Shown here: piece after piece, positions 51,465-64,000 of the stretch
Layout of the letters: each line of letters begins with the position of its first letter
Position numbering within the stretch: position 1 is the stretch's first letter
Source: Microthyrium microscopicum
Lineage: Eukaryota; Ascomycota; Dothideomycetes; Microthyriales; Microthyriaceae
Length of the DNA: 64,000 nucleotides
Direction of reading: 5' to 3'
NCBI GenBank assembly: GCA_010405405.1
Contig: MU004230.1
Coordinates: forward strand, 468,627 to 532,626
Program-made: the position numbers and the translations under genes
The notes under the pieces: generated by a model
Told to the model about the DNA's origin: nothing
Databases searched by the model: none
The model's input: only the letters and a program-made list of their open reading frames with translations

Positions 51465-53306
51465 ATGCGTTACGCATTTGTTGCCTCTGCGCTGCTCTGC
51501 GCATCTGTCGCTTTTGCCGACGATGCTTCATCAGCTTCCTCTTCCGAATCATCTACTTCTTCTTCGTCCACCGTAGCAAACAAGCCTACATTCACAGTAA
51601 GTTCACTTGACATCAACTAGACCTACGTGCGCATCACATACTAACTGCCTCCTAGCCCACAAAGCTAAAGCCTTCCGGTGGTTTCCTAGAACAGTTTACT
51701 GATAACTGGGACACCCGGTGGAAGCCATCTCACGCGAAGAAGGAAAAAGACAAGGACTCAACAAGTGAGGAAGAATGGGCATATGTCGGAAAATGGGCCG
51801 TTGAGGAGCCTCATGTTCTCGGTGGCATGGTTGGTGACAAGGGTCTCGTCGTAAAGGACAAGGCTGCTCACCACGCCATCTCTGCCAAATTCGAGAAGCC
51901 CATCTCCGCCAAGGGCAAGCCACTCGTCGTTCAATATGAAGTCAAGCTTCAAGGTATGTTTTACATTCTCACTCTCAATAGCTTCTCGTTCTAATTCAAC
52001 TCCAGATGGCCTCGAGTGCGGTGGTGCTTATATGAAGCTCCTTCAAGACAATAAGAAGCTTCACCGTGAGGAATTCTCAAATGCCTCTCCCTATATTATC
52101 ATGTTTGGTCCCGACAAGTGCGGTGCTACCAACAAGGTCCACTTTATCTTCCGTCACAAGAACCCAAAGACCGGCGAGTATGAGGAGAAGCATCTCGACA
52201 ACCCTCCTCTATCCCGTTCTACCAAGCTCTCCGCTCTCTATCAGCTCGTTGTTCACCCCAACAACACCTTCATCATCAACATTGATGGTGAGCAAGTCAG
52301 CACTGGTAGCCTCCTTGAGAACTTTACCCCAGCTGTCAACCCACCAAAGGAGATTGATGACGAGGCAGACAAGAAGCCCGAAACCTGGGTTGATGAATCC
52401 CGCATTGCTGACCCAGAGGCCAAGAAGCCAGAGGATTGGGATGAGGATGCTCCATTCGAGATTCCCGATACTGATGCCAAGAAGCCTGAAGACTGGCTAG
52501 ATGATGAGCCCTCCATGGTCCCAGACCCAGAGGCTGAGAAGCCCGAGGATTGGGATGATGAAGAGGATGGTGACTGGGTCGCCCCTCAGGTCCCCAACCC
52601 CAAGTGCTCTGAATCATCTGGTTGCGGCAAGTGGGAGGTTCCAATGAAGAAGAACGAGGCCTACAAGGGCAAGTGGACCGCACCATTGATTGACAACCCC
52701 AAGTACAAGGGTGAATGGGCCCCACGCAAGATTGCCAACCCCAAGTATTTCGAGGACAAGACCCCTGCCAACTTCGAGCCTCTTGGAGCTATTGGCTTCG
52801 AGCTCTGGACTATGCAGAACGATATCATGTTCGACAACATCTACATTGGAAACTCTGTCGAGGATGCCGAAGCTCTCAAGAAGGAAACCTGGGACCTTAA
52901 GATTGAGGCCGAAAAAGCTGAGGAGAAGCTCAACGAGCCCAAGTTCGAGGACATCAAGGACCCATCTGCTCCTATTGACTTCAAGAAGGACCCCGTCGGT
53001 TTCGTCAAGCAGAAGGCTGAGGCTTTCATCACTGCCGCCAAGGCTGATCCTATCAAGGCCGCTCAAGAGATGCCAGAGGTCGCAGGTGTTCTCGGTGTTA
53101 CTGCCCTTACAATCCTCGCTCTCATCCTTACTGCCCTTAGCCCATCCGCTCCATCCAAGGAACAAATCAAGGCCAAGGCCAACAAGGCAAAGGATGCCGC
53201 AGAGAAGGCCAAGGACAAGGCTGCCGAAGCTATCTCCAGTGGTGTCGATCAAGCCAAGGATGCTACAAAGCGCTCTACTCGATCATCAACTGCCGGTGCT
53301 CAGTAG
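51465..53306 (+). CDS. cne1: Calnexin, ER lectin chaperone
   Basis: Exons 51465-51596, 51656-51953 and 52006-53306 give 576 residues. Signal peptide [18 protein letters not shown], then a Ser-rich linker and the lectin domain ([39 protein letters not shown]). The P-domain has four type 1 repeats built on KPEDW and type 2 repeats ([31 protein letters not shown]). Then [22 protein letters not shown], a membrane helix ([18 protein letters not shown], about 510) and a Lys/Ala-rich cytosolic tail. Calnexin binds monoglucosylated N-glycans in the ER and promotes glycoprotein folding. The tail has no classic KKxx retrieval signal, as in many fungal calnexins. Confidence 0.96.
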
Positions 53307-55997: not shown

Positions 55998-56430
55998 CTA
56001 AAACTGTCCCTCATTTGGATCAGACCTATGCATTCATTAGCCTCCATCCTCACCTACTACTATAAGCAGGGACAACTCACGTAACAATCCAATCACCATG
56101 CTGACTCTGCCCCCCATTCTGACAGCCCGTAACTTCCAGAGCCAACCAGTCCTGGCACCCAGCATTACTCATATATCCCTGGCCACCCGATACACGCTTA
56201 ATGTTGTAGTTGTAGCGCAAGTTTCCGTTGACATTCACGCACCAACCAAGCTCTTCCTCTTGGTCATATGTGCGGTCTCCTAGAGTTACGGTGCAGGCTT
56301 CGGCGGCATAGTTGAGAGCGTTGGGGCGGAAGAGGCCGTCGGTCCAGGGTTGGCTGCTGGTGAAGCAGCTGGCGGAGATTAGGGGTGTGAGGAGGGTGGT
56401 GGTGAGGATGGCGAGGGTGGGGAAGTGCAT
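55998..56430 (-). CDS. Small secreted protein, possible effector-like
   Basis: Start placed at MHFPTLAILTTTLLTPLISA because it begins a clear signal peptide; the frame is open further upstream but without one. Exon 1 runs 56430-56081; a donor GTGAGT, a GCTAAT branch site and an acceptor TGCATAG give exon 2 (56025-55998) and an ending VTSDPNEGQF (125 residues). Without splicing the protein ends at 56077 after IVT. The mature part is about 105 residues with five cysteines (SCFTSS, EACTVT, GWCVNV, AGCQDW, TGCQNG) and Asn/Gly/Tyr-rich sequence. A TATA-like GTATATAAGA lies near 56591-56582, about 155 bases upstream. The family is not recognised; size and secretion signal fit small secreted fungal proteins. 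Confidence 0.65.
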
Positions 56431-56581
56431 GGTGTTTGGGTGTTTTGGAGGGGATGGGATGGTTCGTGTAGATGGTGCTTTGGGAAGGGTAGGTAGGGAA
56501 TTGTAGGAGATGTAGTTCTTGGAAGATTGGGTTGATAGTGACATGTTTTTAAGTGGTGAAAAGAGCTATGATGTAGTGGTT

Positions 56582-56591: not shown

Positions 56592-57093
56592 CTTCTATAT
56601 CTTGCTGTTCATCGGGCTTATGGTTATCTCTATAGAGAAGCATCGCGAGGCAAATATAGGTACAAACCAACTTATATCCTCCAGGTCATTTGACTGTTAT
56701 TGGCTTGAGCTAAAGTAGATATGCAAAGTACCTGCGGCAACAAATACACTAATGCAGGTAAAGTGGCCCAATAAATCTTCCTATGCAGCTTCGTTTCCTG
56801 AACCCAAGTATCCTGGAAGCTTGAAATAGTGACAGATATGAATGCTTAAAACATTTGTTAGTAGTCCATTCCATACGCAGGTTCAAGCAAAATAACTTTT
56901 TGTGCTCAAAAATGGCAGTGACATGGTGACTTTTGGAACTATATGCGGAGACACATAACAGTGAAGTCGAACTCGACCCGTAGCTTTTAGAGACACAAAT
57001 CATAGCTTGCGAGAACAAAAGAGCTAGCAAGATGACCTAAAGTATCAGACCAAGGTTCTTCCTACGGAAATGTCCATTGTTAGTCGTATATCA
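56592..57093. other. Intergenic
   Basis: About 500 bases up to the left end of the mariner-type element; short frames only. Confidence 0.35.
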
Positions 57094-58901
57094 TAACGTG
57101 CCTCACCTAGATCTTGGCATACCTAGATCTCGGCACCCTAAATAGGATATTCTATAATTAAATACTAAAGCATAACATAACTAATTATTAATAAAATTTA
57201 AATATTTAAACTACAAGATTAAGCTTAATCTTAATGCTAGATTTTTACTTTTTTAGCTCTTCTATAGCTCGTTTTAAAGTATCCTAAATATTAACTAACT
57301 AGTTAGTAGCATAGTCTAATATAATCTTTTTTAGATTATCTATCTTTATATTATAATCTTTTTTCTTTCTTTTAGACTTCTTTAAAGTAGACTAAAGTAT
57401 AGAAACCTAAGTTTTAAGAGTATTTATCTCTTACTAAAGACGTAGGTTTTAAGCTAAGATTTAGCTTATTTCTCTTACTATAGAATATATTACTATTTAT
57501 TTAGTTCTTAGTATAAATAATACCTTTTTAAGAGCTAGAAAAGAAGTAGAAATAGTTAAAATAGGTATAGATTATATAGAAACTAACTATTAGGAATTTT
57601 CTAGTAGCTAAATAATATAATAAAGAACTTAATAGCAATTAATAGGCTAGATTCTAGTTAATATAAAGATAGATATATAATTTATCTTTATAAAGACCTT
57701 TTAATAAGCTTTTATATAAATCTAAATAAAGATTCTTTTCTAAATTAGAGCTAAGGATAAAGCTAAAGAAGATCTATTTAATTCTATTAAAAAATATTAT
57801 TTTAAAGGTCTAAAGATTTTAATATCTAAAAGCTATATTTAATAAAAGAAATATAGTAGTAAATAGATGATTTATATATTATTTTTAATATATTTATAGC
57901 AAAATTTAGGTATAGTATAGCTACTATAGTTATTATAAATTAAAATTTACTATTTCTTTAGATCTAAAGGCGTAGTTTATAGAATAAAGATCTAATTAAG
58001 CTATTCTTTACCTAGTTAATTTAATATCTAACTATTAACTATAGCTATAAATTTATAACTATTTAAAAGTAGATCTTCTTTATAATTTAGTAGAAACTAG
58101 TAATTTAGAACTAATTTGCTTTTATAGATAGCTAAATATAATAAAATAAAGCTAAGAGCTAAGATTATTTCTAAAATTAATATATTCTTATAACTACTAT
58201 TCTCTATAACGAAAAAGTCTCCTATTTTATAGTTCTCTACTATTTAATAAAATACTATAACTACCTCTTTACTAGAGATACTTAAACATATTCTAGTTTT
58301 ATTAAAATTATAAATATTTGCTAGTTTAACCTTAAGGAAAGAAATTGCTCTTTTAAGGCAATTAAAATACTTATTTATAGCCTTATAAGTAGTTCTATTA
58401 ACTTATTATTTATTAATACGTTTTATAATAAAGTAAATAACTTCTAAATTTTGCTTTTTAAACGATTTAACCTAATTTTAGCCTAAAAAGGTATCTAGAA
58501 TTTACTAATAAAAAAGTCTTTAAGTAAAGTCTTTTATTTAAATATAAGTAGGTAGCAAACTAGCTAATTCCTCTACTTAAATCTAGGAAATAATTTCTAA
58601 TTCCTTAGTAATTAATAGTTTTTATAGCAAGCTATATAAAGTTTTCTTTAACTCTTATCTAGTAATTTAATCTTAAAGAGTTAATTTTAGAATGCTATAT
58701 AACTTAGCTATAGTAAGAATAGATTTATATTTACTATTTTTTATAGCTATAATAGTAGCTTAAAGTAAAGCTTTATTAACTATTTAAATTATAAAAGAAA
58801 CGTATTTAAATTAGTAGAGTTATGGTTAATTTAAGTATCTAGAAATTATCTAAAGGGGGTGCCGAGATCTGGGTGTGCCGAGATCTAGGTAGGGCACGTT
58901 A
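57094..58901. mobile_element. RIP-degraded Tc1/mariner-type DNA transposon (Fot1/pogo size)
   Basis: The element 57096-58899 (1,804 bp) is flanked by TA at 57094-57095 and 58900-58901. The ends are inverted: ACGTGCCTCACCTAGATCT at the left and ACGTGCCCTACCTAGATCT read inward from the right. Each terminus holds two direct copies of a 16-base unit ACCTAGATCTCGGCAC (left 57105-57120 and 57121-57136; right 58859-58890), with single transitions between copies. TA duplication plus about 1.8 kb length fits Tc1/mariner, Fot1/pogo-like. The interior is AT-rich, poor in CpA and CpG, and has stops in all frames, so no transposase can be read. It differs in end sequence from the MITE at 6143-6359. Confidence 0.82.
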
Positions 58902-60983
58902 GGACGAGGCTGAGGCTCAACGAGATCCTCTTAGATCTAAGCCCCGACTAGCTTCGATCCCTCATATGCAAGTAACGTAAAACCTTCAACACTACCAAAA
59001 TCTGGCCTTGAAGCTGATGTCTTTATCGGATATATCGTTCATTTGGGTTCTATCGTTCAATTGATAATCCTAGTGTCTTGATATCTAAGAAAAGGCCTGC
59101 TGATGCATGCTAGTATTCGAACTGATCCAACTTCATCACTGACTTCTTTTAAGACCATTTGTCCAAAACTGACATATTGCGAACCCGTACATGCAAGTTG
59201 AGTGTATGACTTGTCATGTTCTGCTCTCAATGAATAATAGGCGAGTTTGCGTTCTTAGCCGAGTTGAATTAGACTCCGTAGCAAATCATGCGACATATTG
59301 ACACCGATTGCCATATCAAGCATGCTGGTAACAACATTCAAGTAATATTTTATGATCAAGGAAAGTGCCGTTGGTCTGTCCCTTTCTTGAAGATGCCCAA
59401 AATTCGGAGAAATTATGGAGTCCAGTGGTTATGTACTTCCTCTCTATCCACATCCATGATATGTCGTCTTTCAGATATTCTGTAGCAAGCCTCCGTTTAA
59501 GGAAAGAATGTAAAATTATCGTAGCTATATAGTGCAATTAGATCAATAATACAAGAATTTAGCAAGTATGAGACAGTTGGACATGTATTTCATCTGCCTA
59601 TGCCCAGAGTTGAACACAGGCACTTTCACCTCAAGCTTTCAAAACACCAAAAACAAAAATACCTCCGGTGTATCTTCTGAAGAGGCCTCGCGACATAACC
59701 AAGCCCCCAAAGCTAGTTAGTTCAAAGCCAATTCTGAAAAATACACCGAAAGCAGCTTAACACCCACCTGCGCCCACATGGTGCCCCCAAGTACCACGGT
59801 ACCACAAGTAGATGCTAAGCAACAGATATTGTCACCAAATGAATTATATACTAAATTTAACACCTCCATTTTGCCTATCCGCTAGTTTCTACCACGTTGC
59901 TTTCGGTTTCCTAACAAGGGGACACCGTCAAAATAAACGTATAAACTCTAAAACATGCAGATCGAAACCATATCGACATAGCAAATACCAAGCGCTCAGC
60001 AGATAGTAAGAAATAGTGAGTCCAGATTTTACCCACAGCTTTCTGAATTCGACTGCGATGTTACCCACAGGTAACAAACTGATAGAATGTCCAAGGTGCC
60101 TGGTTTTCGTGGTAATATGAGCGAGAACCGATTTCTGCTCGATCAATGCCATCAAGCTGATTAGATACACAACCGCCCGCCAACAAGGGCCAAGTAACGC
60201 AAAAGACAACAAGTCCTGCAAAGAAAAACCACATGTTGAGACGCGATAAGAGATGGGCATGGATAAAAAGTTCGCTAGGACATTGCTCAGTCGTGAGCAT
60301 AACAATCTCGCTTTACGACACCCAGTACTTCCTGAGAAGGAATTATAGAGCCAGGATAGAGTCAATTTCTTTAAGAGACAATCAAGAGATTTGAAGCAAA
60401 GATAAGCTTGCATGTCAATTGGGAGACAAAGTCAAGTCCATCCAGAGGGCTCAGATGTTGAAGGATTGGTGGTGAGCACATTTTTATATTGAAACTTGCT
60501 CAGCCGAGCGCTGTTTAGCCTAACGGCGATAAGAGTTAATTTAGCACAACAAGAAAATCGAACAGGAAATTCGGCCAAGGGCGAAGAAACGATCATCTCG
60601 ACGGGTTTTCCAGTTCTACTCCATCATGCCTTCATAGTAAATAGTTTTTAGCTAATTGGAGTCCCGTTCCCATGCGTTGCTAGTCTCTCCGCCCCAGACA
60701 GTTTAAGATGATACTTTCTAGGATCATTATCTCTTAGAGTAGAGTTTGGCGGAGTATTTGTTCCGTCTGTACTGTTGGATGCGGAAGAATTCTACAATCA
60801 GAAGCAATCGAAGGCGAACAGAAATCGAGACTTCGAAGTCCGGGCTCTAGGCGATGCATATAAGAACATGTCTCTTGGCTCAACACCGTAATGAAAGACA
60901 ACAAGCCTTGCCAAGTACTTCTTCATCCTACAAGCGTTCAATACTAAACCCTTCTAAAGAAGAATTTGTTTTGACACGAGAGA
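58902..60983. other. Gene-poor region between transposon and repeat-protein gene
   Basis: About 2.1 kb. Overlapping minus-strand frames at 59928-60413 (161 codons) and 60061-60300 (79 codons) contain hydrophobic stretches such as MWFFFAGLVVFCVTWPLLAG; I cannot tell which, if either, is a real small membrane-protein gene. No other gene, RNA or repeat is visible. Confidence 0.35.
60855..60863 (+). promoter_or_regulatory. TATA-like box of the Kex2-type repeat gene
   Basis: GCATATAAG stands about 120 bases upstream of the ATG at 60984, a typical distance for a regulated fungal secreted-protein gene. Confidence 0.4.
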
Positions 60984-61650
60984 ATGTACTTCACCAAATT
61001 CATTGCTCTTGCAATCCTGAGCTATAGGTCAGTTTCCTTCCCATTTCATGAGAAACCTCTACTGTACAAGCCCTGGTAAACTGACACGGTATGATTTTGA
61101 ACAGCTCAGTAGTCTATTCTCTCCCCACTAGCAATGGCATCGAAAGCTACGGTACTCGGGAGGTAGGATATGCCCATGCTCAGCCTTTGGAAGGTATACC
61201 AGGGTACTGATGATTCTATAGGTACAACTAGAGAAGAGACATACCCCTGCTGAGCGAGCTCAGGAGAAGAAGACTGGCAAATATCACCTTGATAAGGGAG
61301 AGTCATTGAAACAAGAGGAAAAGAAGGCCGGATATTCCACCAAGAAGGCAAAGGCTTACGTCTCTGGAATTGTAAAGAGACATACTCCAGGAGAAAGAGC
61401 TCAAGAAAAGAAGACTGGCAAATACCATCTCGACAAGGGCGAGACTCTAAAGCAAGAAGAGAAGAAGGCAGGATATTCTACCAAGAAACCGAAGACTCAC
61501 ACCTACAAGGCTGAGAAACGACACACTCCAGCAGAAAGAGCCGAGGAGAAGAAGACTGGCTCCTATCATCTTGATAAAGGAGAAACCTTGAAGCAAGAGG
61601 AGAAGAAGGCAGGATATAGCCACAAGACATCAAAGCATCACAGCCGTTAG
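60984..61650 (+). CDS. Secreted repeat protein with Kex2-type KR sites (KEP-like precursor)
   Basis: Three exons (60984-61027, 61105-61162, 61222-61650) give 176 residues. The signal peptide MYFTKFIALAILSYSSVVYS is built from exons 1 and 2. After a short pro-segment come three repeats of 47, 47 and 42 residues (41-87, 88-134, 135-176), each opening HTP[AG]ERA[QE]EKKTG and each directly preceded by a dibasic site: LEKR40, IVKR87, AEKR134. Shared core blocks are YHLDKGE, LKQEEKKAGYS and, in repeats 1 and 2, TKK. There are no cysteines and the mature parts are highly charged. Signal peptide plus KR-spaced near-identical repeats is the layout of Kex2-processed repeat proteins, which include alpha-factor-type pheromones, repellents and precursors of cyclic peptides (dikaritins). 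No UstY-type oxidase is visible in the window. Introns are 77 and 59 bases. Confidence 0.78.
61240..61647 (+). repeat. Three in-frame tandem repeats of 141 bases (last one shorter)
   Basis: Units 61240-61380, 61381-61521 and 61522-61647 encode the repeated peptide of the KR-site protein. Most differences between units are silent (for example TCA/ACT, TTG/CTA, CTT/CTC), so the peptide is better conserved than the DNA. Confidence 0.85.
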
Positions 61651-62147: not shown

Positions 62148-62910
62148 TCAGTCTTGCTCTATTATTTCGAGGATGTGAGTGTTCTTAATTCGACATGATT
62201 CTCCTGCTCCACAACCAAGCTCGGCTCGGGCTTGGTCATAATCGCCATGGAACTTCATAGAAGCTATTATGGTGGCTGCTTCCTCGCACGGGCGATCAGT
62301 GTAGTCGACAGGATGTAGATTTGTGACGGTTTGAGGAGTGGTCATGACCTCTTGACGAAGCTCAACCTTAGCATTTGTTGATTTTTGCTGACAGCTAGAA
62401 TCTGATGCGGCAATGGTCATGGGTATTTTGGATGGCTTTGTGTCCTGTGATGTTGGCGATAAGATTGTGCTAGGAGACGGAATAGATGCAGTTGAAATGG
62501 TGCCCTTTTGGCATCCGCGAGATTCTGTGAAGCACGTCTTGACCGCAGGAAAAGGCGAGTAAAGATTTGTCTCCCCGGCCTGGAGCATAAAATCGTTGAT
62601 TTCCTGATCCAAGACCCCTTTCCGTCTCAGTAATGTCCGCAGCAATTCATTTTCCCTAGCAACCTTGCGTGCAACATGCTGAAGTTCTACCGATGCCTGA
62701 ACTCCATTTCTTTCATACTCAGCTAGTCTTGCTGCTAGATCTTCTATACGCTCCTTTTTTCGTAGCCTGGAGTTGCGTTGATTGTCCCGTAATCGGATGG
62801 AGGCTGGGATGGACGATTTCTGCTCAAGGGTCAGCGATGAGGGCTCGCAGGCTGATGTTGACAGAGGCGCAAGCGGGACAAGGAGATGAAAGACGCACCT
62901 GTCTCGCCAT
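62148..62910 (-). CDS. bZIP transcription factor
   Basis: A four-codon first exon (62910-62899, MARQ) joins exon 2 (62822-62148) over a 76-base intron with CTGAC near the acceptor, giving 228 residues. The basic region is RLRDNQRNSRLRKKERIEDL (residues 14-33), followed by a leucine-zipper-like helix to about residue 85. This is the fungal RDNQRxSRxRRKE type, with Asn and Lys at positions often Arg. A Ser/Pro-rich middle and a conserved-looking C-terminus (ARAELGCGAGESCRIKNTHI) follow. Cysteines are at 101, 108, 148, 183, 208 and 213, two of them as spaced pairs. The start is 337 bases from the divergent ACR3 start, suggesting it may control that gene. A longer unspliced frame to 63059 exists but lacks the typical MARQ-type start. 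Confidence 0.8.
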
Positions 62911-63247
62911 GGTTCATTCAATGATCTACTTAGCTTTGCAATCTCGTATAACCCGCTAGCCGAACGTTGTTGTGAATGGCTAGAGCCGCAAGAAGCTCGA
63001 ATTGAAATTGTGTAGACACAAGAGAGTTCTGATTGGTCGACTTTTTGCCTCAAAATCATAGAGATCCGATCCGATCTGATATAATTTCTTCCATGTCGCT
63101 TTACGAAACTCTCCTAAATAATTTTGAATACCCTTCCAAACACTTGCACTTTAATACTAGTATCTGGAATTACTGAGGTCTTCTTCTGGACCAACTAGTA
63201 CCACAGGTTCCGAATATAACTTCAGGTTACTTGCGAAGAAGATTCAA
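62911..63247. promoter_or_regulatory. Shared divergent promoter of bZIP and ACR3
   Basis: 337 bases between the two ATGs. A tandem GATCCGATCCGATCTGAT lies at 63063-63080. I looked for the yeast Yap8 site TGATTAATAATCA and did not find it. Control of both genes from here is inferred from geometry only. Confidence 0.45.
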
Positions 63248-64000
63248 ATGTCACTTGATGCAGAAGACTTGGAGAAGAACTCCAAGGCTGTGCAACCTAA
63301 TGAAATAAGTACACTCCAGCCTATTCTATCCGCTATCATAATGTATGCTGACGTCTCCAAGACGAGCTCACCGACCACACTTCAGAGCAAGCTCCGCTCA
63401 AGGCACTATCATTCCTCGATCGCTTTCTAGTAATATGGATTATCCTCGCAATGGCAATCGGAATTTTACTCGGCAACTTCGTTAAGTCAACAGGACCAGA
63501 CTTACAGAAAGGCCAATTTGTCGGTGTGAGCATACCTATTGGTAAGTCTAAGCTAGATCTGAATGTGTACAGTACTCATTTACCCTTTTAGCTGTCGGCC
63601 TTCTTGTAATGATGTACCCCATTCTCTGCAAGGTGAAGTACGAGTCACTGCATCTCCTCCTTCGCAAAAAAGACCTTTGGATCCAAGTCGGAATATCTTT
63701 TGTGTTGAACTGGATCATTGCACCTCTTTTCATGGTCGGACTTGCATGGGCCTTCCTTCCAGACCGACAAGATCTTCGTGAGGGCTTGATATTTGTCGGA
63801 ATCGCTAGATGCATTGCCATGGTGTTGATATGGACAGATCTTGCAAACGGAGATGGAGATTATTGCGCTGTCTTGGTCGCTTTCAACTCCATTCTGCAAA
63901 TCATCCTGTTCGCACCTTTTGCGATATTCTATATCAACATCGTAAGCCACTCGAAAGAACTGGTCACTGTAAGCTACTCAAAGGTAGCAACAAGCGTTGC
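63248..64000 (+). CDS. acr3: Arsenite efflux transporter Acr3, 5' part
   Basis: Exons 63248-63308, 63362-63541 and from 63592 to the window edge; the 3' end is outside. About 217 residues are visible. The cytoplasmic N-terminus is MSLDAEDLEKNSKAVQPNEI, then membrane helices VIWIILAMAIGILLG, VGLLVMMYPILCKV, VGISFVLNWIIAPLFMVGLAW and the family signature FVGIARCIAMVLIWTDLANGD, whose Cys is essential in studied Acr3 proteins. The product exports As(III) (and in yeast Sb(III)) across the plasma membrane, driven by the proton gradient. The first splice acceptor (CTCCAAG at 63361) was chosen because it restores the frame into ELTDHTSEQAPLKALSFLDRF. It is head-to-head with a bZIP gene. Confidence 0.93.

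Follow-up and report, generated by a model that had tools for sequence, protein, structure and literature searches.

The gene BT63DRAFT_461825 of Microthyrium microscopicum, deposited as a 183-aa "hypothetical protein", quite likely encodes a prepro-protein of the KEP type that would be processed to linear peptides. It lies in a window of 64,000 nucleotides, the whole stretch of DNA that we analyzed, and its product has the layout of a Kex2-type repeat precursor that a first-pass annotation had described, with a hydrophobic N terminus, a pro-region and a KR pair ahead of each of three units. That annotation also regarded the gene as the best candidate for an undescribed secreted-peptide system, and on this point our reading departs from it: the architecture is that of a named class, the KEPs (PMC6339444, PMC7329392; both used here in excerpt), in which 25-50 residues is one of the recognized size classes (Le Marquer 2019, PMC6339444). 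Judged from its sequence, BT63DRAFT_461825 is an orphan member of this known kind, and what we did not find described is its peptide, for which no relative was detected.

Gene structure

The window corresponds to C1:468627-532626 of the host genome assembly, which comprises 36.9 Mb in 20 contigs and represents the order Microthyriales (Dothideomycetes). Our spliced model was 100% identical to BT63DRAFT_461825 over the whole query. The reading frame opens with an ATG at 60984, with an in-frame TGA 12 nt upstream, and ends with the stop codon at 61648-61650, so that the previously assigned extent of the gene, 60984-61650, proved right at both ends. Splice motifs were derived from 262,626 bases of this genome, made up of a 172,626-base region that contains the window and three further stretches of 30,000, which provided 92 training introns, some of them false, as their lengths are too even. 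The summed score of donor, acceptor and branch-like AACTGAC in intron 1 equalled or exceeded those of 72% of the training introns. For intron 2, the deposited form and a longer alternative were nearly equal on splice motifs, and either one may be used. Introns no longer than 38 nt number 3 among the 92 used for training, which slightly favours the longer form, though the training set is noisy. With either intron, KR directly precedes the first HTP. Two of the KR contexts given in the first-pass annotation, IVKR and AEKR, are certain, whereas that of the first site, LEKR, arises with the 59-nt intron alone and reads EEKR with the deposited 38-nt intron.

Table 1. Features of the precursor gene in window coordinates.
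Feature	Position	Strand	Basis
Exon 1, signal-peptide-like N terminus: start and hydrophobic core	60984..61027	+	deposited model
Intron 1, 77 nt	61028..61104	+	splice-motif score 13.8
Exon 2, putative signal peptide end and pro-region	61105..61193	+	deposited model
Deposited intron 2, 38 nt, yields LEEKR	61194..61231	+	score 11.9
Intron 2 alternative, 59 nt, gives QLEKR	61163-61221	+	score 11.5
Exon 3, first KR and three repeat units	61232..61650	+	deposited model
KR site 1 (AAG AGA)	61234..61239	+	sequence
Unit 1, conserved 33-residue core HTPAERAQEKKTGKYHLDKGESLKQEEKKAGYS	61240..61338	+	sequence alignment
Variable tail/spacer 1	61339..61374	+	tail divergence
KR site 2 (AAG AGA), IVKR	61375..61380	+	sequence
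Unit 2, conserved core	61381..61479	+	sequence alignment
Variable tail/spacer 2	61480..61515	+	tail divergence
KR site 3 (AAA CGA), AEKR	61516..61521	+	both codons synonymously changed relative to sites 1 and 2
Unit 3, conserved core	61522..61620	+	sequence alignment
C-terminal tail HKTSKHHSR and stop	61621..61650	+	sequence

Three near-identical units, each behind a KR pair

The N terminus, MYFTKFIALAILSYSSVVYS, contains the most hydrophobic stretch of the protein (Kyte-Doolittle 9-residue maximum of 2.32 at residue 6, against 1.12 in the rest of the protein) and by eye resembles a signal peptide, with a plausible end between VYS and LP. A pro-region of about 25 residues follows and closes with KR. 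Beyond it the protein is a tandem array of three units, with lengths of 47, 47 and 42 residues, which all start with HTP (at 61240, 61381 and 61522) immediately after a KR pair, and Tandem Repeats Finder reported an array at 61256-61617 with a period of 141, 2.6 copies and a score of 421. Leaving the signal-type N terminus aside, the near-identical repeats behind KR pairs were thus present where the first pass had placed them. The units share a core with the consensus HTPxERAxEKKTGxYHLDKGExLKQEEKKAGYS, in which 29 of 33 positions are invariant. In units 1 and 2 the core continues into a 14-residue tail that closes with KR; unit 3 ends in HKTSKHHSR instead.

The mature part of the deposited model has three KR pairs, all of them before HTP, and eight KK pairs, which the first-pass annotation does not mention; neither RR nor RK is present. 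Lysine makes up 33 of the 183 residues (18%), each core holds two Tyr, and a composition count found neither Cys nor Trp. If cut, the precursor would release peptides of which 38-42% of residues are charged, with net charges of +5, +5 and +3, in agreement with the earlier description of long, charged, Cys-free peptides of 42-47 residues. A single-sequence AlphaFold model had a mean pLDDT of 56.8 and a pTM of 0.16 and showed a short helix that follows closely on HTP in every unit. On this model, which as a single-sequence prediction is weak evidence, the released peptides would probably be mostly disordered in isolation.

The core peptide appears to be under strong purifying selection

We compared the 33 core codons between units. 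pN/pS was 0.025/0.98 for units 1 and 2, 0.082/0.73 for units 1 and 3, and 0.082/0.78 for units 2 and 3, corresponding to 20/2, 14.5/6.5 and 15.5/6.5 synonymous/non-synonymous changes. The probabilities of so few non-synonymous changes were 2.7e-12, 5.1e-6 and 1.5e-6, respectively, under an approximate null model in which changes fall randomly on sites and multiple hits are disregarded. Silent core sites are saturated or near saturation, and the protein sequence has been retained. These ratios bear out the earlier suggestion that synonymous differences between repeats reflect selection on the peptide, and we conclude from them, as three units of one gene, that the core peptide is under purifying selection. 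A single gene is thereby enough to indicate that the sequence of the peptide is important in its own right.

Of the 29 invariant residues, 13 (units 1 and 2), 16 (1 and 3) and 17 (2 and 3) are encoded by identical codons, against a random expectation of 11.6 drawn from codon use in nine long frames of the window; identity was above chance for units 1 and 3 (P 0.065) and 2 and 3 (P 0.028), and about random for units 1 and 2. Because codon identity is close to random while the residues are invariant, the repeat copies look old and held alike at the protein level, although these are within-gene estimates from three copies, in which age and selection for differing codons are separable only with orthologues. 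RIP was considered as the sole source of the core differences and ruled out, as 28 of the 65 pairwise differences are transversions (37 transitions).

The tails behaved differently from the core. Between tails 1 and 2, pN was 0.34 (14 codons including KR) compared to 0.025 in the core, and the distribution of non-synonymous changes between core and spacer in units 1 and 2 was significantly uneven (Fisher P 1.8e-5). Eight of the 12 residues preceding KR differ between these tails, and KR itself is retained. Retention of KR, a fully synonymous change at one of the sites and the divergence of the spacers together suggest that the dibasic sites are probably also under purifying selection. None of 20000 residue shuffles put KR in the three positions together, a figure to be read with the three sites as non-independent because they derive from duplication.

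Proposed processing and the readings that compete with it

In the processing that we propose, signal peptidase would cut off the N terminus, the host kexin would cleave after the three KR sites and a Kex1-type carboxypeptidase would remove the trailing KR. The secreted products would be linear and unmodified, namely three peptides with lengths of 45, 45 and 42 residues, which makes for a simple prediction for mass spectrometry. The 33-residue core would be the active part and the variable tails would be spacers, the three copies would let each transcript deliver more of a single peptide, and the likely role is that of an extracellular signal or a surface-active peptide. The genome contains one P-domain match, in a frame that carries both Peptidase_S8 and P_proprotein and in which, by eye, a hydrophobic segment and then an acidic C-terminal part lie further downstream; by these features we identify the frame as a kexin. 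In the yeast Kex2 matrix of PMC2515848 (cited from excerpts), the P4 residue of KR site 1 scores 0.05 as E in the deposited model and 0.09 as L in the alternative, so that by this yeast measure the deposited model places a poor residue at P4.

A finer processing, in which the invariant KK pairs of each core would be cut as well, by Kex2 or by a different convertase, appears improbable to us. Its mature products would be as short as alpha-pheromones, namely HTPxERAxE (9 residues) and TGxYHLDKGExLKQEE (16 residues). In its favour, all three units have a KK pair behind HTPxERAxE and another behind LKQEE, KK is counted as a site in both KEP surveys (PMC6339444, PMC7329392), and products of 9-24 residues form the commonest KEP class in Dikarya, yeast-like Basidiomycota excepted (PMC6339444). 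However, K at P1 scores 0 in the yeast Kex2 matrix (PMC2515848), a review gives Arg as the nearly exclusive residue at P1 (PMC8528282), and the KK pairs are conserved no more than the remaining core. Moreover, the units begin with HT after KR, in place of a STE13-type XA or XP start; four DPPIV_N matches are present in the genome.

Still less probable is a secreted repeat protein that remains uncut, in which the repeats would act jointly in the intact chain, for example on the cell wall, and KR would be a mere part of the repeat. The high lysine content and the low confidence of the structure model are compatible with such a protein, the composition of the mature part by itself predicts about 1.6 KR pairs, and the excerpted results of PMC2515848 include proteins with high-scoring Kex2 sites that stayed uncut in vitro. 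Against this, KR lies exactly before three of three cores and was kept as the spacers changed, and no further dibasic pair ending in Arg occurs in the mature part.

A precursor of a cyclic RiPP of the dikaritin type (ustiloxin, phomopsin, asperipin), which would have the precursor layout in common with BT63DRAFT_461825 and for which the two Tyr of each core also speak, is hardly credible, as no UstYa (DUF3328) match was found nearby, the units of 42-47 residues far exceed the 4-residue cores of ustiloxin and phomopsin (PMC7329392), and eight neighbouring frames, five with a Pfam family and three with none, gave no sign of a RiPP cluster. A six-frame search found 23 exon-level UstYa matches genome-wide (counts are lower bounds), of which the sole one on the contig of the gene, at C1:3957907, is more than 3.4 Mb away. 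As regards UstYa, this supports the first-pass statement that no tailoring oxidase is nearby in the window and extends it past the window edge, and the lack of a nearby match fits the linear peptides of the processing proposed above. More than one UstYa match was found on each of contigs C2, C5, C7, C8, C9, C12 and C15, and real dikaritin-type clusters may exist elsewhere in the M. microscopicum genome.

Relatives and comparison with known peptide precursors

We searched 5.8 billion proteins for homologues under a length rule of 0.55-1.75 times the query; relatives with no five-residue word in common would escape this search. Among proteins of 100-320 aa, 1192 candidates at E <= 1 gave a match to the precursor itself alone; at E <= 10, none of 93 candidates of about 31-98 aa and none of 4436 candidates of 231-735 aa matched. 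A paralogue was not found in the genome of M. microscopicum, 592 pattern matches in bacterial and archaeal contigs yielded 0 confirmed cases, and the PDB contained no match to the precursor at E <= 10. The result is a puzzle that may interest specialists: the peptide is apparently old and tightly constrained, yet no relative of it was detected, perhaps because the order is thinly sampled.

Two candidate family assignments were set aside. The whole protein matched Pfam DUF5457 with 22.0 bits (E 0.00018), below the curated cut-off of 25.2 bits; single units gave 13.3 bits, 13.7 bits and no match, and among three invented control peptides of comparable composition one scored 14.4 bits against an unrelated family, as high as the single units. 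DUF5457 matched neither the host genome nor any of 14 control genomes, an outcome that says nothing either way. A likeness to thymosin beta was not borne out, since the Pfam matches include no thymosin-type family and the PDB gave no match. In the open-licence literature, supplementary KEP tables excluded, we found no published description of this gene or of DUF5457.

Compared to the KEPs as described in the excerpts of the two surveys (PMC6339444, PMC7329392), the precursor is alike in its signal-peptide-like start and its three tandem repeats between dibasic sites, and it differs in that its repeat matched no other protein and in its near-invariant core with silent sites at or near saturation. 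Umemura 2020 (PMC7329392) required of a KEP a signal peptide plus three or more tandem repeats, each with 8 residues or more and none longer than 100, that lie between KR, KK, RK or RR; the three units found here, each behind KR, agree with the repeat part of this definition, and with KK counted, pieces of 9 and 16 residues are also present three times (by eye). The pipeline of Le Marquer 2019 (PMC6339444) called for at least four KR/RR fragments, three of them matching, with the C-terminal one first set aside. By this procedure the precursor gives four fragments, with two units left once the C-terminal one is removed, and, judged from these criteria, the pipeline would probably miss BT63DRAFT_461825.

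Umemura's survey counted 7878 KEPs in 1345 of 1461 strains, with 5.25 per ascomycete strain, and 2560 of the 7878, about one third, were stand-alone KEPs without homologues (PMC7329392). Given this abundance and the existence of a 25-50-residue class, an orphan KEP with long units is ordinary in such a genome. PMC9769878 describes KEPs as common and most of them as encoding peptides of unknown function, and reports the expression of six Coprinopsis KEPs in Pichia pastoris.

The repellent precursor Rep1 of Ustilago maydis resembles BT63DRAFT_461825 in that its Kex2-released peptides (37 residues, PMC6339444) are of similar length to the proposed products; compared by description, Rep1 peptides form amyloid-like fibrils (PMC8528282), whereas the peptides here are highly charged. 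Ascomycete MF-alpha precursors are likewise prepro-proteins with repeats after KR that give linear peptides. However, MF-alpha peptides have 9-24 residues and often follow STE13 XA/XP motifs (PMC6339444), whereas those proposed here would have 42-45 and start with HT, and the MF_alpha family was absent from the Pfam matches at E <= 10, a search in which most weak matches are removed by HMMER filtering. A speculative extension of the KEP reading, which we consider doubtful, is that the gene yields an ancient secreted peptide of about 33-45 residues that is restricted to its lineage, acts on a receptor or target of its own, has stayed nearly constant as a protein in its three copies over the time needed to saturate silent sites, and is unrelated to alpha-pheromones, dikaritins and repellents.

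Genomic surroundings

The five neighbouring frames with a Pfam match encode members of the calreticulin, aldehyde dehydrogenase, SBF transporter, URO-D (uroporphyrinogen decarboxylase) and MutS families, and the three others had none at 1e-5. By these family assignments there is no sign of a RiPP cluster among the eight frames tested. One of the frames without a Pfam match at 1e-5, at 62148-63113 on the minus strand, shows by eye a bZIP-like basic region and a leucine pattern. It is adjoined by the SBF-family transporter at 63552-63998 on the plus strand, which seems to continue past the end of the window and which we take to resemble an Acr3-type carrier.

Upstream of the precursor gene, a 48-nt inverted repeat at 57091-58904, with 88% complementary arms set 1718 nt apart, lies around very AT-rich DNA (GC 0.18-0.30 at 56900-58699). 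By these features the element looks like a decayed, perhaps RIP-affected, relic of a terminal-inverted-repeat transposon. An open frame on the minus strand at 56077-56565 has a signal-peptide-like start, MHFPTLAILTTTLLTPLISAS, and several Cys, and is a possible small secreted protein. Finally, tandem repeats of 57 nt and 42 nt occur at 52410-52747, inside the calreticulin-family frame at 51855-53306.
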